Source of the DNA: Maribacter sedimenticola | GTDB lineage: Bacteria; Bacteroidota; Bacteroidia; Flavobacteriales; Flavobacteriaceae | Assembly: GCF_900188415.1 (NCBI RefSeq) | Contig: NZ_FZNV01000003.1 | Coordinates: 434,001-498,000 of the forward strand | Direction of reading: 5' to 3' | Length of the DNA stretch: 64,000 nucleotides | Part shown: in pieces, positions 2,936 to 35,170 of the stretch | Position numbering within the stretch: the stretch's first letter is position 1 | Layout of the letters: every line of letters starts with the position of its first letter | Notes under the pieces: model-generated | Database searches by the model: none | Seen by the model: only the letters and a program-made list of their open reading frames with translations | What the model was told of the DNA's origin: nothing | Translations under genes and position numbers: made by a program

Positions 2936-3078
2936 TAAAATTTAGATTTAAATTATGGGTTTTGTCCACACTGAAATAGTAGGTTATATGCTAATGTGAA
3001 AAATATTAACATGTTTTACGTCCAAAATGTAAAATGACCCGTATATAACTCTAAACAATAACCATTTAACATAACACA

Positions 3079-3450
3079 ATGAAAAAAGTAATTTTAGGAT
3101 CATTAGCAATTTTAGCATTAAGTATGTCTATTTCCTGTAGAGAAACTGCAGACAAGGCAAAATCCGCTACAGAAGAAGCTGGTGCCGCTTTAGAGGAAGC
3201 TGGAGAAAGCTTGAAAGAAGCTGGTGAAGAGCTTGAAGAGGCTGGTGAAGGTGCTATGGATGCCGCCAAGGAAGCCAGTGAGGATGCTATGAAAGCTGCT
3301 GAAGATGCGGCCGAAACCGTAAAGGAAGCCGGTGAAAAAACCATGGATGCCGCAAAAGAAGCAGGTAACGACGTTAAGGATGCGGCCAATGAAGCTGCTG
3401 ACAAGGCTGCAAAAAAAGCCAATGAAATAGAAAAAGCGGTTAAAAACTAA
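3079..3450 (+). CDS. Ala/Glu/Lys-rich helical lipoprotein
   Basis: 123-residue predicted lipoprotein of unknown function. A hydrophobic signal (residues 2-19) ends in a lipobox with Cys at about residue 20. The rest is almost entirely A, E, K, D and G in imperfect repeats such as EEAGE, KEAGE and DAAKEA, so it should form one long amphipathic or coiled helix. The composition resembles LEA-like and YtxH-type proteins, but I cannot assign a family. It is a single-gene unit: ileS diverges upstream, and a strong hairpin terminator follows 24 bases after the stop. A cell-envelope or stress role is inference from the signal and composition. Confidence 0.8.
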   Translation: MKKVILGSLAILALSMSISCRETADKAKSATEEAGAALEEAGESLKEAGEELEEAGEGAMDAAKEASEDAMKAAEDAAETVKEAGEKTMDAAKEAGNDVKDAANEAADKAAKKANEIEKAVKN

Positions 3451-3473
3451 ATTAACCTCTCTCTTAAATTCTT

Positions 3474-3500
3474 AAAGACCCGTTATTGCGGGTCTTTTTT
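3474..3500. terminator. Bidirectional hairpin terminator
   Basis: Perfect 9-bp stem AAAGACCCG (3474-3482) and CGGGTCTTT (3489-3497) with loop TTATTG, followed by a T run on the plus strand and preceded by A-rich sequence. It sits between the converging genes ending at 3450 (+) and 3504 (-), so it can serve both. Confidence 0.85.
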
Positions 3501-3503
3501 TGT

Positions 3504-5915
3504 TTAAAAATAGTAGCCAAGTCCTAAGATGACATTACGCCCTGGTGCAACAATACCTGAGGAATAAGTCCTGTAACGTTGGTCCGTTATATTTTCCATA
3601 CTTGCGGATGCCTTTAAACTCTGCGAAATATCAAACTGCGAACGAAAATTCAACGTATACCATGACGGTGCAAACGGATTTCCATTTTCATCAACAGCAT
3701 AGATATATTCCTTTGATCGCTCAGACATTGAAAGATCATTATAAACTATCTCTCCATTATAGTTGACATAAAGATCTGTCTTTAACCTTTGGTTTTTCCA
3801 TATAATATGGAAATCCCCAAAAGTAGGTGCGGCATGTCTTGCGGGAGTCTCCGTACCATCTTCTTCCTCTTCCACACCTTGGGTAAAAGTAAGGTTGGAT
3901 CTCATGGACCATTGCTCGGTCAAATAGGCATCCAAACCAAATTCAAATCCGTAAACGAAAGCCTTGGCCGCATTTTGTATTGCTTGTACGTTACTTAGCT
4001 CACCGCCATATTCTATTTCAGAAACACCATTATAACTAAAATCCCTGCGCACCAATGCATCAACCAAATACGTATAATAGGCCGTACCCTTTATAATTAC
4101 CTTGTCCTTAATATTACGATGTATACCAAATTCTACATTATACGCATATTCAGGCTCCAGGTCTGGGTTGGGAACTACTACGGATCCCGGTTCAGAATCG
4201 AATATTTTACCTACATCATCAATATTGGGCGCCCTAAATCCTGTTGAACCGTTCAAGGTTATTTGTAAATTAGCCTTGGGAAACCAACTTAAACCTAAAC
4301 TACCCGTCAACGCCCCTGTACTTAAATCTGCTTTTTTAAATGGAAAGTCGTAAAACGTATCATCAAAATCCGCATTTACCCATACATGGCTATAACGAAG
4401 GCCGGACATTAATGTTAAATTAGGTTTGGCCTTATACTCACCATTGATATAACCCGCCAAACTCTGCCAAGTAGATCCATCTGGATAACGTGATGCCGAC
4501 GGATATTCCTCGTTGGTCACGATATTTCTATCGATACCTAAAGAACCAACCGTATTAAAAATATACTCCCCACCGTAATAAGTTTTAAAATTACCTATTT
4601 TCTTATTCTCCAAATCTATATTTACATTCAAGGCATTGACCTGTTCCTTGGTGGAATTCAACACATCATCCTGAAAATCCCTATTATGCCTACTTTCTTC
4701 AAAATGTTGATATGCCAAACCAAGCTTTAACCCATCATATACTTTACCATCACCTTTTCTTAAAACCTGGGCATTGGCCATAAACCATTTTTGAGGACCA
4801 TAATACCATTCTGCCGATCTTAACCCTTGCCCATCACTTGAAGGACGTATTAATCTATCATATCTAGAATAATCCGATGTTTCTGAAAAATATGCTCCCA
4901 GATTTAAATTCCATTTTGCATTGGGCCTGAACAATACTTTTTGCATTAGATTTATTTGATCATACCCTGTTGTAACCTGTGTTCTAGGTGACCCATTTTC
5001 CATTAATACATCCTCACCGTTATTACGCGTTACGTATGAATTCCTTAAATAAGAATCCGGTCCATGGGAACCCATTTTTAGATCTTGAAAATCGTTGTAG
5101 GTCACACTTGTTAGCGATGCCCACTTTTTTTTACCGATATTTATATTTGCATGCACCGTATTTTCATTGTTGGCCGATGAAAACCTATAATTGGTATTTC
5201 CCGCTACCAACAGGCTATCATTTTCTGCGAGTACTGGTTTTTTCGGGTAAAAGTTCATAACGCCCCCAATGGCATCACTCCCATAAATTACCGAACCCGG
5301 ACCAAATATTATTTCAGTATTCTTAATTGTATACGGATCTATTGAAATTATGTTTTGAATATTACCGCCCCTAAAAATAGCATTATTCATACGTACACCG
5401 TCTACGGACAATAGCAACCTATTAGTGGCAAAGCCCCTTATCATAGGACTACCACCACCTAATTGACTTTTTTGCACAAAGACCTTTCCGCTACTTTCAA
5501 GTAAATCTGCGGAAGTCTGGGGGGCAGTAAATGAAATAGACTTGGCATCTATGGATATGATTTTATTGGGTATATCCTTTTTCTGTTGCTCCCATTTGGA
5601 AACCGACATTACCACTTCATCCAATTGTTGGGCCTTCATAAATAAGTACACCTTATTTCCTTGTCGTAGCAACTGCTGTTTGGTGGTTTTATATTCTTCA
5701 TAACCAATATGCCGCAAGGTAATGCGTTCCCTATCCAAAAATAGGGATGCATTGAACCTGCCATCAAAATCTGAAAGGGCTATCTTGGATTTATCCTTGT
5801 TAAATATGGCCACATTGGATATGGCCTCGCCACTATCCTCATCTAGAACAGATATATACTGCGCATTGCCAATAAAGGCCATGAAAAACCATATGCCTAA
5901 AAAAAATTTATACAT
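3504..5915 (-). CDS. TonB-dependent outer-membrane receptor, heme/hemoglobin type
   Basis: 803-residue outer-membrane receptor for energy-dependent uptake. Signal peptide at about residues 1-18, then a carboxypeptidase-regulatory-like domain (about 20-90), a plug domain (about 105-225, with MIRGF and DGVRMNN motifs and the GPGSVIYGSDAIGG stretch), and a 22-strand-type barrel ending in an aromatic residue (GLGYYF). FRAP (near 557) followed by NPDL (near 582) are the two barrel motifs typical of heme/hemoglobin receptors, so heme is the best guess at the substrate; siderophore or another ligand is possible. The start overlaps the 3' end of recO by 8 bp, so it is probably co-transcribed with it. 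No heme-handling gene lies next to it. Confidence 0.9.
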   Translation of the reverse strand: MYKFFLGIWFFMAFIGNAQYISVLDEDSGEAISNVAIFNKDKSKIALSDFDGRFNASLFLDRERITLRHIGYEEYKTTKQQLLRQGNKVYLFMKAQQLDEVVMSVSKWEQQKKDIPNKIISIDAKSISFTAPQTSADLLESSGKVFVQKSQLGGGSPMIRGFATNRLLLSVDGVRMNNAIFRGGNIQNIISIDPYTIKNTEIIFGPGSVIYGSDAIGGVMNFYPKKPVLAENDSLLVAGNTNYRFSSANNENTVHANINIGKKKWASLTSVTYNDFQDLKMGSHGPDSYLRNSYVTRNNGEDVLMENGSPRTQVTTGYDQINLMQKVLFRPNAKWNLNLGAYFSETSDYSRYDRLIRPSSDGQGLRSAEWYYGPQKWFMANAQVLRKGDGKVYDGLKLGLAYQHFEESRHNRDFQDDVLNSTKEQVNALNVNIDLENKKIGNFKTYYGGEYIFNTVGSLGIDRNIVTNEEYPSASRYPDGSTWQSLAGYINGEYKAKPNLTLMSGLRYSHVWVNADFDDTFYDFPFKKADLSTGALTGSLGLSWFPKANLQITLNGSTGFRAPNIDDVGKIFDSEPGSVVVPNPDLEPEYAYNVEFGIHRNIKDKVIIKGTAYYTYLVDALVRRDFSYNGVSEIEYGGELSNVQAIQNAAKAFVYGFEFGLDAYLTEQWSMRSNLTFTQGVEEEEDGTETPARHAAPTFGDFHIIWKNQRLKTDLYVNYNGEIVYNDLSMSERSKEYIYAVDENGNPFAPSWYTLNFRSQFDISQSLKASASMENITDQRYRTYSSGIVAPGRNVILGLGYYF

Positions 5916-32087: not shown

Positions 32088-32124
32088 TAATATATCTAAC
32101 ATTAATTGCTTTAAAAGTTATAAA

Positions 32125-33678
32125 ATGTCAAAAATAGCCTCAGATTTCGGTATTTACGATGCCCTAAAAGTTTTAGGAATAAAGGAGATCAACGAAGGTT
32201 CCTCTACAGGTACCAACAATTTTTCATCCGGTGAAACTATAGCGTCATTTTCACCCGTAGACGGTTCTTTGATCGCCAAGGTTAAAACCACTACTAAAGA
32301 AGATTATGAACAAGTAATGGGCACCGCAACTGCCGCTTATAAGGAATGGAGGACCAAACCTGCACCACAAAGAGGTGAAATTGTCAGGCAATTTGGCGAT
32401 AAACTTCGTGAACTCAAGGAACCGCTAGGGAAATTGGTCTCTTATGAAATGGGTAAAAGCTACCAAGAAGGTTTGGGAGAAGTACAGGAAATGATAGACA
32501 TCTGCGATTTTGCGGTTGGCCTATCCAGGCAATTGCATGGTTTGACCATGCATTCGGAAAGACCGGGACATAGAATGTATGAACAATATCACCCCCTAGG
32601 TGTGGTGGGCATAATATCCGCATTTAATTTTCCAGTAGCCGTTTGGGCCTGGAATACTGCATTGGCATGGATCTGTGGAGATGTTTGTATTTGGAAACCT
32701 TCAGAAAAAACACCCCTGTGCGGCATTGCTTGTCAACATATAGCGGCTACGGTCTTCAAAGAGAATAATTTACCGGAAGGAATTTCATGTTTGATCAACG
32801 GGGATTATACCGTAGGTGAATTAATGACCGGTGATGCCCGTATTCCATTGGTATCAGCAACGGGATCTATACGAATGGGCAAAATTGTTGCCCAGGCCGT
32901 CGCGGCGCGGTTGGGTAAATCGTTATTGGAGTTAGGTGGCAACAATGCCATTATCGTAACTCCAGATGCCGATATTAAAATGACGGTAATCGGAGCAGTT
33001 TTTGGTGCAGTAGGAACAGCAGGGCAACGTTGTACATCTACCAGAAGATTGATTATACATGAATCTATGTATGATAAAGTAAAGAATGCCATAGTCGCTG
33101 CCTATAACCAATTAAGAATAGGAAATCCCTTAGATGAAAATAATCATGTGGGGCCATTGATTGATACGGATGCCGTATTACAATATAATAAAGCATTGCA
33201 ACAAGTGGTCAACGAGGGCGGCAACCTCATTGTAGAAGGTGGAGTATTGGAAGAACAAGGGTATGAAAGCGGTTGCTATGTACGTCCGGCCATAGCAGAG
33301 GCAGAAAACCACTTTAAAATTGTGCAGCATGAAACATTTGCTCCAGTTCTATATCTAATAAAATATTCCGGTGACGTGGAAAATGCCATTGCCATACAAA
33401 ATGGTGTGTTACAGGGACTATCTTCAGCAATAATGACCAATAACCTTCGTGAAGCGGAACAATTTCTTTCCGCTTGGGGAAGTGATTGTGGAATTGCCAA
33501 TGTAAATATAGGTACTTCAGGTGCTGAAATTGGCGGTGCTTTTGGTGGAGAAAAAGAAACAGGTGGCGGTAGGGAAAGTGGCTCAGATGCATGGAAAGTG
33601 TATATGAGAAGACAAACCAATACCATTAATTATACCACGGAACTGCCATTGGCCCAAGGTATAAAGTTCGACCTTTAA
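32125..33678 (+). CDS. Aldehyde dehydrogenase, ALDH7 type (alpha-aminoadipic semialdehyde dehydrogenase-like)
   Basis: 517-residue NAD-dependent aldehyde dehydrogenase. It shows the N-terminal GIYDALKVLGIKEINEG block and MTNNLREAEQFLSAWGSDCGI, both typical of ALDH7 (AMADH/antiquitin). The general-base region is LLELGGNNAIIV near 270, and the nucleophile Cys lies in GTAGQRCTSTRRL near 303. ALDH7 oxidises 2-aminoadipate 6-semialdehyde in lysine catabolism. The neighbouring 3-hydroxyanthranilate dioxygenase might suggest aminomuconate semialdehyde instead, but the family signal favours lysine. The ATG at 32125 (MSKIASDFG) was chosen over a frame extension to 32077 that crosses the -7 box. Confidence 0.92.
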   Translation: MSKIASDFGIYDALKVLGIKEINEGSSTGTNNFSSGETIASFSPVDGSLIAKVKTTTKEDYEQVMGTATAAYKEWRTKPAPQRGEIVRQFGDKLRELKEPLGKLVSYEMGKSYQEGLGEVQEMIDICDFAVGLSRQLHGLTMHSERPGHRMYEQYHPLGVVGIISAFNFPVAVWAWNTALAWICGDVCIWKPSEKTPLCGIACQHIAATVFKENNLPEGISCLINGDYTVGELMTGDARIPLVSATGSIRMGKIVAQAVAARLGKSLLELGGNNAIIVTPDADIKMTVIGAVFGAVGTAGQRCTSTRRLIIHESMYDKVKNAIVAAYNQLRIGNPLDENNHVGPLIDTDAVLQYNKALQQVVNEGGNLIVEGGVLEEQGYESGCYVRPAIAEAENHFKIVQHETFAPVLYLIKYSGDVENAIAIQNGVLQGLSSAIMTNNLREAEQFLSAWGSDCGIANVNIGTSGAEIGGAFGGEKETGGGRESGSDAWKVYMRRQTNTINYTTELPLAQGIKFDL

Positions 33679-33686
33679 AATAGTAG

Positions 33687-33797
33687 ATTAATTCCTTTGC
33701 ATGTTTTAAGCGGTCTTACCGTTTGCTGGCTCATTGGACCAGCTTCCTTGTAGCAGGGTTTGAAGCCCAAGTAGGAAGAACATGCAGAGGAAATTAA
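33687..33797. repeat. ATTAA direct repeats flanking the junction element
   Basis: ATTAA at 33687-33691 and again at 33793-33797 abut the two ends of the 14-bp inverted repeat (33692-33705 and 33779-33792) with no gap. This arrangement is what a short mobile element with terminal inverted repeats and a 5-bp target duplication would leave. The pentamer is AT-rich, so chance is possible. Confidence 0.4.
33692..33792 (+). ncRNA. Candidate structured RNA, compact four-way junction
   Basis: 101 bases that fold almost completely. P1: 14 bp, 33692-33705 with 33779-33792, one G-U. P2: 7 bp, AAGCGGT (33708-33714) with ACCGTTT (33718-33724), triloop CTT. P3: GCTGG (33725-33729) with CCAGC (33739-33743), extended by TC/GA past a bulged C. 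P4: TTCCT (33744-33748) with AGGAA (33773-33777), capped by GGGTT/AGCCC (33756-33760, 33764-33768). Junction linkers are 2, 0, 0 and 1 bases. The wobble pairs (33697-33787, 33710-33722, 33759-33765) are G-U on the plus strand but A-C on the minus strand, so plus-strand transcription is favoured. It lies 13 bases after the ALDH7 stop. I cannot name a family; a palindromic DNA element is the alternative. Confidence 0.55.
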
Positions 33798-33945
33798 ATA
33801 TATTTCTTATCCTTTTTTTCATTCCACTCCTTCATTTATAGTGCTTTAGAAAGCTAGCATTTTATATTTTATAGTGTTTTAAAATCTGTACAACTCACCG
33901 TAAAAATTGTATAATTGGATTTTTGCTACCTGAATAGTTTGCATA

Positions 33946-33983
33946 AAAAAATCTTGTCGACATGATAGAAGACAAGATTTTTT
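33946..33983. terminator. Bidirectional hairpin terminator
   Basis: 13-bp stem 33946-33958 (A5 then ATCTTGTC) with 33971-33983 (GACAAGAT then T5), 12-base loop. It could end the ALDH7 transcript together with the structured element at 33692. Confidence 0.75.
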
Positions 33984-34022
33984 AACCAACTAACTCAAAA
34001 CTTTAAAGGTCATATCAATGCC

Positions 34023-34122
34023 CAATCTTTGTGGGGAGATATATACCTGAAAACTATATTGCAAAAATGCAATAATTAAAGGGGTATACATTTCAACTTT
34101 TCATGTATAAACCCCAAGATTG
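34023..34122 (+). promoter_or_regulatory. Possible structured leader upstream of the OmpA gene
   Basis: CAATCTT (34023-34029) pairs with AAGATTG (34116-34122) and encloses two hairpins: TATTGCA (34057-34063) with TGCAATA (34068-34074) around AAAA, and GGGGT-ATACAT (34081-34091) with ATGTAT-AA-ACCCC (34103-34115, two-base bulge). A second GGGG at 34033-34036 could compete for the CCCC at 34112-34115, giving an alternative long-range pairing. It ends 133 bases before the ATG. Regulatory function is inference. Confidence 0.35.
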
Positions 34123-34255
34123 TACAAATAGTCATCTTTTAAGTATATCTGGAAAATAACCTATAGATTGACTATAAGGCAATTAGCTTTTAAAATTTTA
34201 ACATTGTTAAGATTTTTTTAATACATTGTACATCAAACACTAAACACTATATATA

Positions 34256-35170
34256 ATGTCTAAAACAACCACCAATTTATTATTGATGTTGATTACCATT
34301 GTAGCCGGTACGTTCCTGTATATTTATTTTTGCAGCGAATGTGGTTCATTTACCAAAGAGCCAGCCAAAACCGTTACGGAAACACCGGCAACCGTGGTAA
34401 CTCCTAAAGCCACTTCTTTTCCCTTTGCCATTCAGGGAGAAGGTCTCAATTTTTCCTCGAACGATAATTATAACTTCAACCTTTCATCCAATGATTTTGT
34501 TCAACCTTTAAGTGCTGAAGTTAACACGGGAATTTCAGAACTAAAATCATATTTGGACGGTAACGAAAATCAAATTCTTAATATCACCGGGTATTATACC
34601 AGTGATGAAGAAAACAATACAGCTTTTCCAAATTTAGGACTTGCAAGGGCCAATTCCGTTAAAAACGACTTGGCTTCTAAAGGCGTCTCAACAAGCCAAA
34701 TCAATACTTTGGGCAAACTTATGGATGATATGGTCGCTAAAGACGGTATATATTATGGTCCGGTTTCATTTGATCTTGACACTAAATCAGAAACGGCGGA
34801 TGATGAACTTAAAGCTCTTTATGATGCTATCCAGGCCGATCCCCTTATCCTATATTTCAACACCGCTCAAGCATCAATTACGCTAGATGCGGCACAGCGT
34901 CAAAAAATTGCCGATATCTCTAAATATCTTGATAGAGTAAAGGGAGCACAAGTTGACATTGTAGGCCATACCGATAACACCGGAAAAGCCAGCACCAATA
35001 TGAGATTAGGTTTGGACCGCGCAAATTTTGCCAAAGACTACCTATTAAAAAATGGTATATCTGAAGATAAGATCATAACATCCTCAAAAGGTCAAACTGA
35101 TCCAATTGCCGATAATGCCACTGAAGAGGGCAGGGACAAAAACAGAAGAACCGTTATTACTTTAAAATAA
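34256..35170 (+). CDS. OmpA-family peptidoglycan-binding protein
   Basis: 304-residue protein anchored by one N-terminal membrane helix (about residues 6-26, LLLMLITIVAGTFLYIYF). It has a degenerate first OmpA-like domain (about 75-165, with NLGLARANSVKNDLASKG) and a complete C-terminal OmpA domain (about 200-304, with VDIVGHTDNTGKASTNMRLGLDRANFAKDYL and the closing GRDKNRRTVITL). The intact domain has the Asp and Arg used to bind diaminopimelate of peptidoglycan. A double OmpA arrangement without a barrel suggests a wall-tethering protein. The helix-hairpin-helix gene follows 31 bases later. Confidence 0.9.
   Translation: MSKTTTNLLLMLITIVAGTFLYIYFCSECGSFTKEPAKTVTETPATVVTPKATSFPFAIQGEGLNFSSNDNYNFNLSSNDFVQPLSAEVNTGISELKSYLDGNENQILNITGYYTSDEENNTAFPNLGLARANSVKNDLASKGVSTSQINTLGKLMDDMVAKDGIYYGPVSFDLDTKSETADDELKALYDAIQADPLILYFNTAQASITLDAAQRQKIADISKYLDRVKGAQVDIVGHTDNTGKASTNMRLGLDRANFAKDYLLKNGISEDKIITSSKGQTDPIADNATEEGRDKNRRTVITLK

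Follow-up and report, generated by a model that had tools for sequence, protein, structure and literature searches.

A conserved small-protein gene behind ALDH7 in Maribacter and its relatives, with a closing stem conserved in one Maribacter group

Small bacterial membrane proteins overlooked by annotation offer one comparison for the gene described here, being 30–50 amino acids long, conserved, and composed of one helix; CydX and AapA are comparable in size to its product. The difference is that the present protein is without a Pfam, NCBIfam, or PDB-sequence match: searches of NCBIfam, Pfam, PADLOC, and PHROGs yielded no real match (the best E-values were 0.13 in Pfam, which is below the cut-off, and 0.96 in PHROGs), and nothing was found among PDB sequences at E ≤ 1. 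For the putative control of the gene, the precedent is the LytTR operator, which consists of 9 bp units with a 12 bp spacer and often lies 10 bp before the −35 (PMC6193735). The HdrRM/BrsRM promoters of Streptococcus mutans (PMC6193735) resemble the region upstream of the present gene in carrying direct repeats of ~9 bp, with 12 bp between them, just upstream of the promoter, but here the unit is CCANNTATACA, the window is without a LytTR gene, and the site is putative. For the arrangement of the genes, the comparison is with Staphylococcus aureus, where a lexA antisense RNA arising by read-through of the sbrB terminator was measured (PMC8745188); in both cases the genes are opposed, and an imperfect 3' hairpin could let an mRNA run antisense. 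However, the sbrB/lexA read-through was measured, whereas that in Maribacter is a possibility suggested by sequence, and here a hairpin arm lies inside the codons of the opposite gene.

The window is the whole stretch of DNA that was analyzed, 64,000 nucleotides from Maribacter sedimenticola. The features that concern us are as follows, with positions counted from the first letter of the window:

32122–33678, plus strand: ALDH7-like aldehyde dehydrogenase (Pfam Aldedh), the convergent neighbor of the small ORF
33692–33705, plus strand: noncoding stem arm, directly 3' of the small ORF stop codon and 3' of the ALDH7 stop
33706–33778, plus strand: loop that holds the window fold's three inner hairpins, which are not kept as drawn
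33779–33792, plus strand: coding stem arm, antisense of small ORF codons 11–15 (codons 10–15 in the 17-column version)
33706–33822, minus strand: small ORF of 38 amino acids, MKKRIRNIFNFLCMFFLLGLQTLLQGSWSNEPANGKTA, with its stop codon at 33706–33708, a Lys/Arg-rich N-terminus, and one predicted helix
33887–33918, minus strand: period-21 direct repeat near CCANNTATACA, spaced 9-12-9 as in LytTR sites and lying upstream of the small ORF; putative LytTR-like operator
33946–33983, plus strand: hairpin and U-run resembling an intrinsic terminator, beyond the upstream region of the small ORF; possible end of an ALDH7 read-through RNA

The name ALDH7 comes from the preliminary description of this DNA, which was made from sequence alone; the family match itself is to Pfam Aldedh. 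Two genes converge here, ALDH7 on the plus strand and the conserved small ORF on the minus strand, and the element at 33687–33797 is mostly the reverse-strand copy of the latter, a gene for a probable membrane protein of 38 amino acids that Maribacter shares with its relatives and that the preliminary description missed. That 33706–33822 on the minus strand is conserved coding sequence explains a large part of the conservation seen within the element.

The small protein has the core motif C-M-x3-L-G-x-Q-x4-G-S-W, and eight residues (C13, M14, L18, G19, Q21, G26, S27, and W28) are invariant over an alignment of 28 rows, one of which is a typed blend. The pN/pS ratio of the small ORF frame was 0.16 among 16 distinct core Maribacter sequences and 0.33 among 62 sequences across the family (locus L035 was excluded from the core group and included among the 62), as compared with 0.57–1.8 for the other forward frames and 0.37–2.1 for the plus-strand frames, all of which contain stops. 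Judged by these ratios, the minus-strand frame evolves under purifying selection, and we regard 33706–33822 with high confidence as a conserved small-protein gene. AlphaFold predicts a single helix over residues 2–29 (pLDDT 76, pTM 0.38), and the product is probably a single-span membrane protein. A 13-codon ORF (MKEWNEKKDKKYI, read by eye) at 33794–33835 of the minus strand lies out of frame over the beginning of the small ORF. In most core relatives, only one ATG stands at that point, and the window species thus seems to have gained an insertion near it. In L035 (G033), the A-run after the ATG is one base shorter, which puts the frame out, either through a sequencing error or by real loss. 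In L048, ALDH7 and the small ORF are separated by an ORF of 281 amino acids that carries collagen-like, Gly-rich repeats (positions 570–1415 of that locus), and the small ORF there has Ile in place of the otherwise invariant Cys.

Apart from the locus itself, a DNA search of 100 genomes turned up two same-genus matches, each with 74% identity and lying immediately behind ALDH7, and three others at E ≤ 0.01 that were only 21–26 bases long. The profile search gave matches at E ≤ 3.9e-9 in 28 of the 397 family genomes sampled, one in each, and seven further matches at 5e-4 to 0.0065 were taken as noise; over a class-wide sample of 395, strong matches were confined to the genome itself and one family member, with four weak ones (E 0.001–0.01). 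A pattern search run on a single genome for each species, which requires one conserved 9-residue stretch and therefore finds close relatives only, recovered 46 loci from Maribacter, Zobellia, Pricia, Eudoraea, Poritiphilus, and uncultured Flavobacteriaceae. The exact motif was present in 92 of 98 loci examined, duplicates included; those without it (L038, L048, L061, L064, L070, and L115) were left out of the counts. ALDH7 is convergent with and downstream of the small ORF in 89 of the 92 motif loci, at a distance of 29 to 1000 bases, and the remaining three lie no more than 1.4 kb from a contig end. Among the 34 same-genus genomes that gave an ALDH7 match, the region behind that gene was read in 30, most of which have an opposite-strand small ORF there. 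Neither the peptide nor the stem was named in any title or abstract start among the literature searches made, and we claim nothing wider.

In the window, the stem arms at 33692–33705 (TTCCTTTGCATGTT) and 33779–33792 (AACATGCAGAGGAA) form 14 pairs, including one U–G, and ATTAA stands at both stem ends, at 33687–33691 and 33793–33797; the preliminary description was correct in reporting this stem, the ATTAA copies abutting it, and three hairpins. As plus-strand RNA, the element folds into the closing stem and three hairpins at −44.2 kcal/mol (z −4.96) and, as minus-strand RNA, it reaches −34.3 (z −3.85), with none of 200 shuffles as good in either case; the fold pattern is beyond chance. It had been suggested that the element might be a MITE-like mobile palindrome with a 5 bp target duplication, a reading that the ATTAA at both ends in the window would favor. 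A search of the organism's own genome with the element found one full copy and 12 other matches of 14–31 bases, which speaks against a MITE with dispersed copies, and the 5 bp flanks at the element ends are equal in just 1 of 18 loci, which speaks against a MITE with a 5 bp target duplication. What the comparison with the host genome and other Flavobacteriaceae did reveal, in place of a second copy, was the element in the same position behind ALDH7 in relatives. Given also that the element overlaps conserved coding sequence, we consider a mobile origin extremely improbable.

The closing stem is a different matter. In 19 of 19 core Maribacter loci (18 distinct over the aligned region, with 17 distinct arm pairs), codons ~10–15 of the small ORF can pair with sequence at the stop or up to ~21 bases behind it. 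Over 17 columns and 18 loci, 94.1% of 306 cells are paired on the plus strand, as against 36–53% for slid controls, and 92.2% are paired on the minus strand, as against 38–53% for slid versions. The noncoding arm has a mean pairwise identity of 0.84, as compared with 0.52 and 0.43 for the neighboring flanks. Among the codons of the coding arm, Leu is encoded by CTT and Cys by TGC, each in 17 of 18 loci, and both Phe codons vary (13:5 and 15:3); the three other invariant Leu positions use CTT in 2, 0, and 11 of 18, respectively. Covariation is thin: both sides changed at 2 of 17 pairs, in four cells, and 167 of 500 shuffles reach the two pairs and 13 of 500 the four cells; in addition, the version slid by +3 has three pairs and six cells with two-sided changes, more than the true stem. 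The case for selection therefore rests on conservation of the arms and less on covariation. Comparison of these sequences shows a stem of 14–17 bp in one Maribacter group, with both arms conserved at the nucleotide level, and our confidence in the conservation of the closing stem is good.

A perfect complementary run of at least 12 bases between the ORF and its 3' flank occurs in 10 of the 18 stem loci and in none of 38 tested loci outside the group (38 of the 45 distinct non-stem loci were used). Because wobbles or mismatches interrupt it, the longest perfect run fails to exceed shuffles in 7 of the 18 stem loci. In a midpoint-rooted ALDH7 tree drawn without support values, the stem loci and L038 form one group, which suggests a single origin of the stem. 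L038 itself (positions 3058–4270) has a small ORF that looks decayed and a 39-nt palindrome, read by eye, that includes the coding arm; the ORF is adjoined by a gene in pieces, presumably transposase-like. It could be argued that template switching during replication (quasi-palindrome correction), rather than selection for pairing, keeps the arms alike, as the joint changes of both arms at two pairs and the palindrome around the coding arm of L038 would suggest. However, template switching alone leaves unexplained both the near-constancy of the Leu and Cys codons in the arm and the retention of the noncoding arm amid diverging flanks, and we think this explanation unlikely.

The interior of the fold did not share the conservation of its closing stem. 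Of the structured element proposed downstream of ALDH7, the stem is kept in 18 of 18 core loci, but the compact four-way junction is not conserved as drawn: across the core loci, pairing in the window fold's inner helices amounts to 59%, 88%, 9.7%, and 45% of cells, and the helix with 88% overlies the Gly-Ser-Trp codons. Over the 18 loci, RNAalifold kept the closing stem on the plus strand with a different inner helix (−14.9 kcal/mol), and on the minus strand it gave the stem and further helices with a slightly better energy (−16.0 kcal/mol). A check for compensatory changes had been recommended, and it yielded little for the closing stem, as seen above, but for the inner helices together the covariation score was reached by only 2 of 500 shuffles and was also above slid versions; some inner pairing may exist. 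The four-way junction in the window species is probably incidental, and the junction as drawn, together with the target duplication, is most likely peculiar to that species. The argument that G–U pairs favor a plus-strand RNA proved not to be decisive: 17 columns contain 13 wobble cells that are G–U on the plus strand and 7 on the minus, a count over 20 columns gives 13 and 12, and, counted as parsimony changes, wobbles number nine plus, five minus, and four of other kinds. As read from these counts, wobble polarity leans to the plus strand. Nor did the suggested comparison with flavo-1 bear fruit: Rfam gave no match at the gathering score over the whole window, three chance matches at E ≤ 10 over 33400–34100 (701 bases), none of them flavo-1, and nothing in four related loci.

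These data also bear on whether the element is instead a structured RNA of the plus strand, either a small RNA or part of the 3' UTR, derived from the ALDH7 transcript and built on the four-way junction, with the small ORF unimportant. The fold z-score on the plus strand, the excess of plus-strand wobbles over 17 columns, and the pooled covariation of the inner helices are all in its favor, but the incomplete pairing of those helices, the different inner helix obtained by RNAalifold, the codon-like conservation on the minus strand, and the want of an Rfam match speak against it, and we judge it improbable.

Between ALDH7 and the start of the small ORF, a hairpin with an immediate U-run was found in 0 of 18 stem loci; beyond that start, 17 of 18 share the hairpin at 33946–33983 of the window, and L028 has another candidate. 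The AACCAACTAACTCAAA that follows this terminator-like hairpin (window 33946–34008) is nearly letter-identical in many same-genus loci. The closing stem can be rejected as an intrinsic terminator, and it differs from those found between convergent genes, in that its loop is 73 nt and no U-run follows directly, a U-rich stretch beginning ~10–20 nt past the stem and not at once. Terminators were scanned in 32 of the 45 distinct non-stem loci. Among same-genus loci outside the stem group, a U-run hairpin behind ALDH7 overlaps the small ORF stop in seven of nine examined; both stem and terminator are missing from L040 and L041, which the midpoint-rooted ALDH7 tree places with the stem loci. Among the 23 loci examined from elsewhere, 17 are without a terminator candidate and six have only weak ones (−6.1 to −9.7 kcal/mol). 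The simple story of a stem that replaced an older terminator is weakened by L040 and L041 and by the 17 candidate-free loci. The distribution of terminators, present in 7/9 examined same-genus non-stem loci and in 0/18 stem loci before the ORF start, suggests that the stem acts on the 3' ends of the convergent transcripts, most likely that of ALDH7.

Upstream of the small ORF, the period-21 repeat near CCANNTATACA is found in most of the family. The mean best score was 14.5 at period 21, as compared with 11.1–12.7 for the rest of the 15–30 range, and in 49 of 63 loci the repeat score was reached by at most 1 of 100 mononucleotide shuffles; the scan covered all 63 loci, and the consensus was derived from those same loci. 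The second repeat unit of the window is degenerate (GTGAGTTGT). The end of the second unit lies 10 bp before a TTGATT in L085 and L114, and we take the promoter type upstream of the small ORF to be Bacteroidetes-like. The genome has 18 LytTR genes, none of them inside the window, and a genome-wide search for the operator pattern with at most two mismatches showed no enrichment (37 matches, and 37 for the reversed control). With moderate confidence, then, we read the repeat as a candidate LytTR operator. A second operator-like match, with one mismatch, lies in the same intergenic region at 34121–34152 of the minus strand, upstream of an OmpA-family ORF (34256–35170) on the opposite strand.

The explanation that we favor, and hold to be reasonably probable on the sequence evidence, is a convergent pair of ALDH7 and a small membrane-protein gene that would be switched by a LytTR regulator, with the group-specific stem as a 3'-end structure. 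A LytTR-type regulator would bind the period-21 repeat and switch on the small gene, and the stem would form the 3'-end structure of the convergent transcripts; on the plus strand it may stabilize or attenuate the ALDH7 3' UTR, and on the minus strand it may serve the stability or attenuation of the small mRNA. Some RNA perhaps runs antisense over the small ORF. Our confidence in the exact role of the stem is low. When the computed fold-back of the small mRNA forms (17 loci, with L035 left out), the mean unpaired value rises from 0.51 to 0.61 for the start region and falls from 0.37 to 0.11 for codons 10–15, which the fold-back occupies. The start region is thus uncovered by the computed fold-back, which argues against a simple block of initiation. 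In a rather unlikely elaboration, the LytTR-switched membrane protein would have codons 10–15 of its mRNA held by selection in a long duplex with the 3' UTR, and ALDH7 read-through would carry the stem antisense; if true, one short sequence would serve as code, as mRNA structure, and as antisense-RNA structure.

The same features invite comparison with type I toxin–antitoxin systems, in which case the peptide would be harmful in excess, ALDH7 read-through would supply the antisense RNA, and the stem would aid either the meeting of the RNAs or the fold-back of the mRNA. The Lys-rich N-terminus followed by one helix agrees with this in size and shape only; there is also long-range pairing inside the mRNA, and none of the 18 stem loci has a terminator candidate between ALDH7 and the small ORF, the plus strand offering its next one past the ORF. 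Such a system is nonetheless distinctly unlikely, as each matching genome has one match, kept in position beside ALDH7, the start region is not hidden, a stem of such length is absent from the 38 tested loci outside the group, and PADLOC gave no match.

What the locus contains is a new small-protein gene with a group-specific conserved stem, rather than a mobile element or a four-way junction conserved as drawn. The convergent pair with a 3'-end stem, which we prefer, offers a clear case of coding sequence and a noncoding arm held complementary to each other, in a position that an ordinary terminator takes up in some relatives. The small-protein family is absent from the libraries searched here and belongs to a Flavobacteriaceae lineage that includes Maribacter and Zobellia, and the candidate regulatory site upstream makes its control testable.
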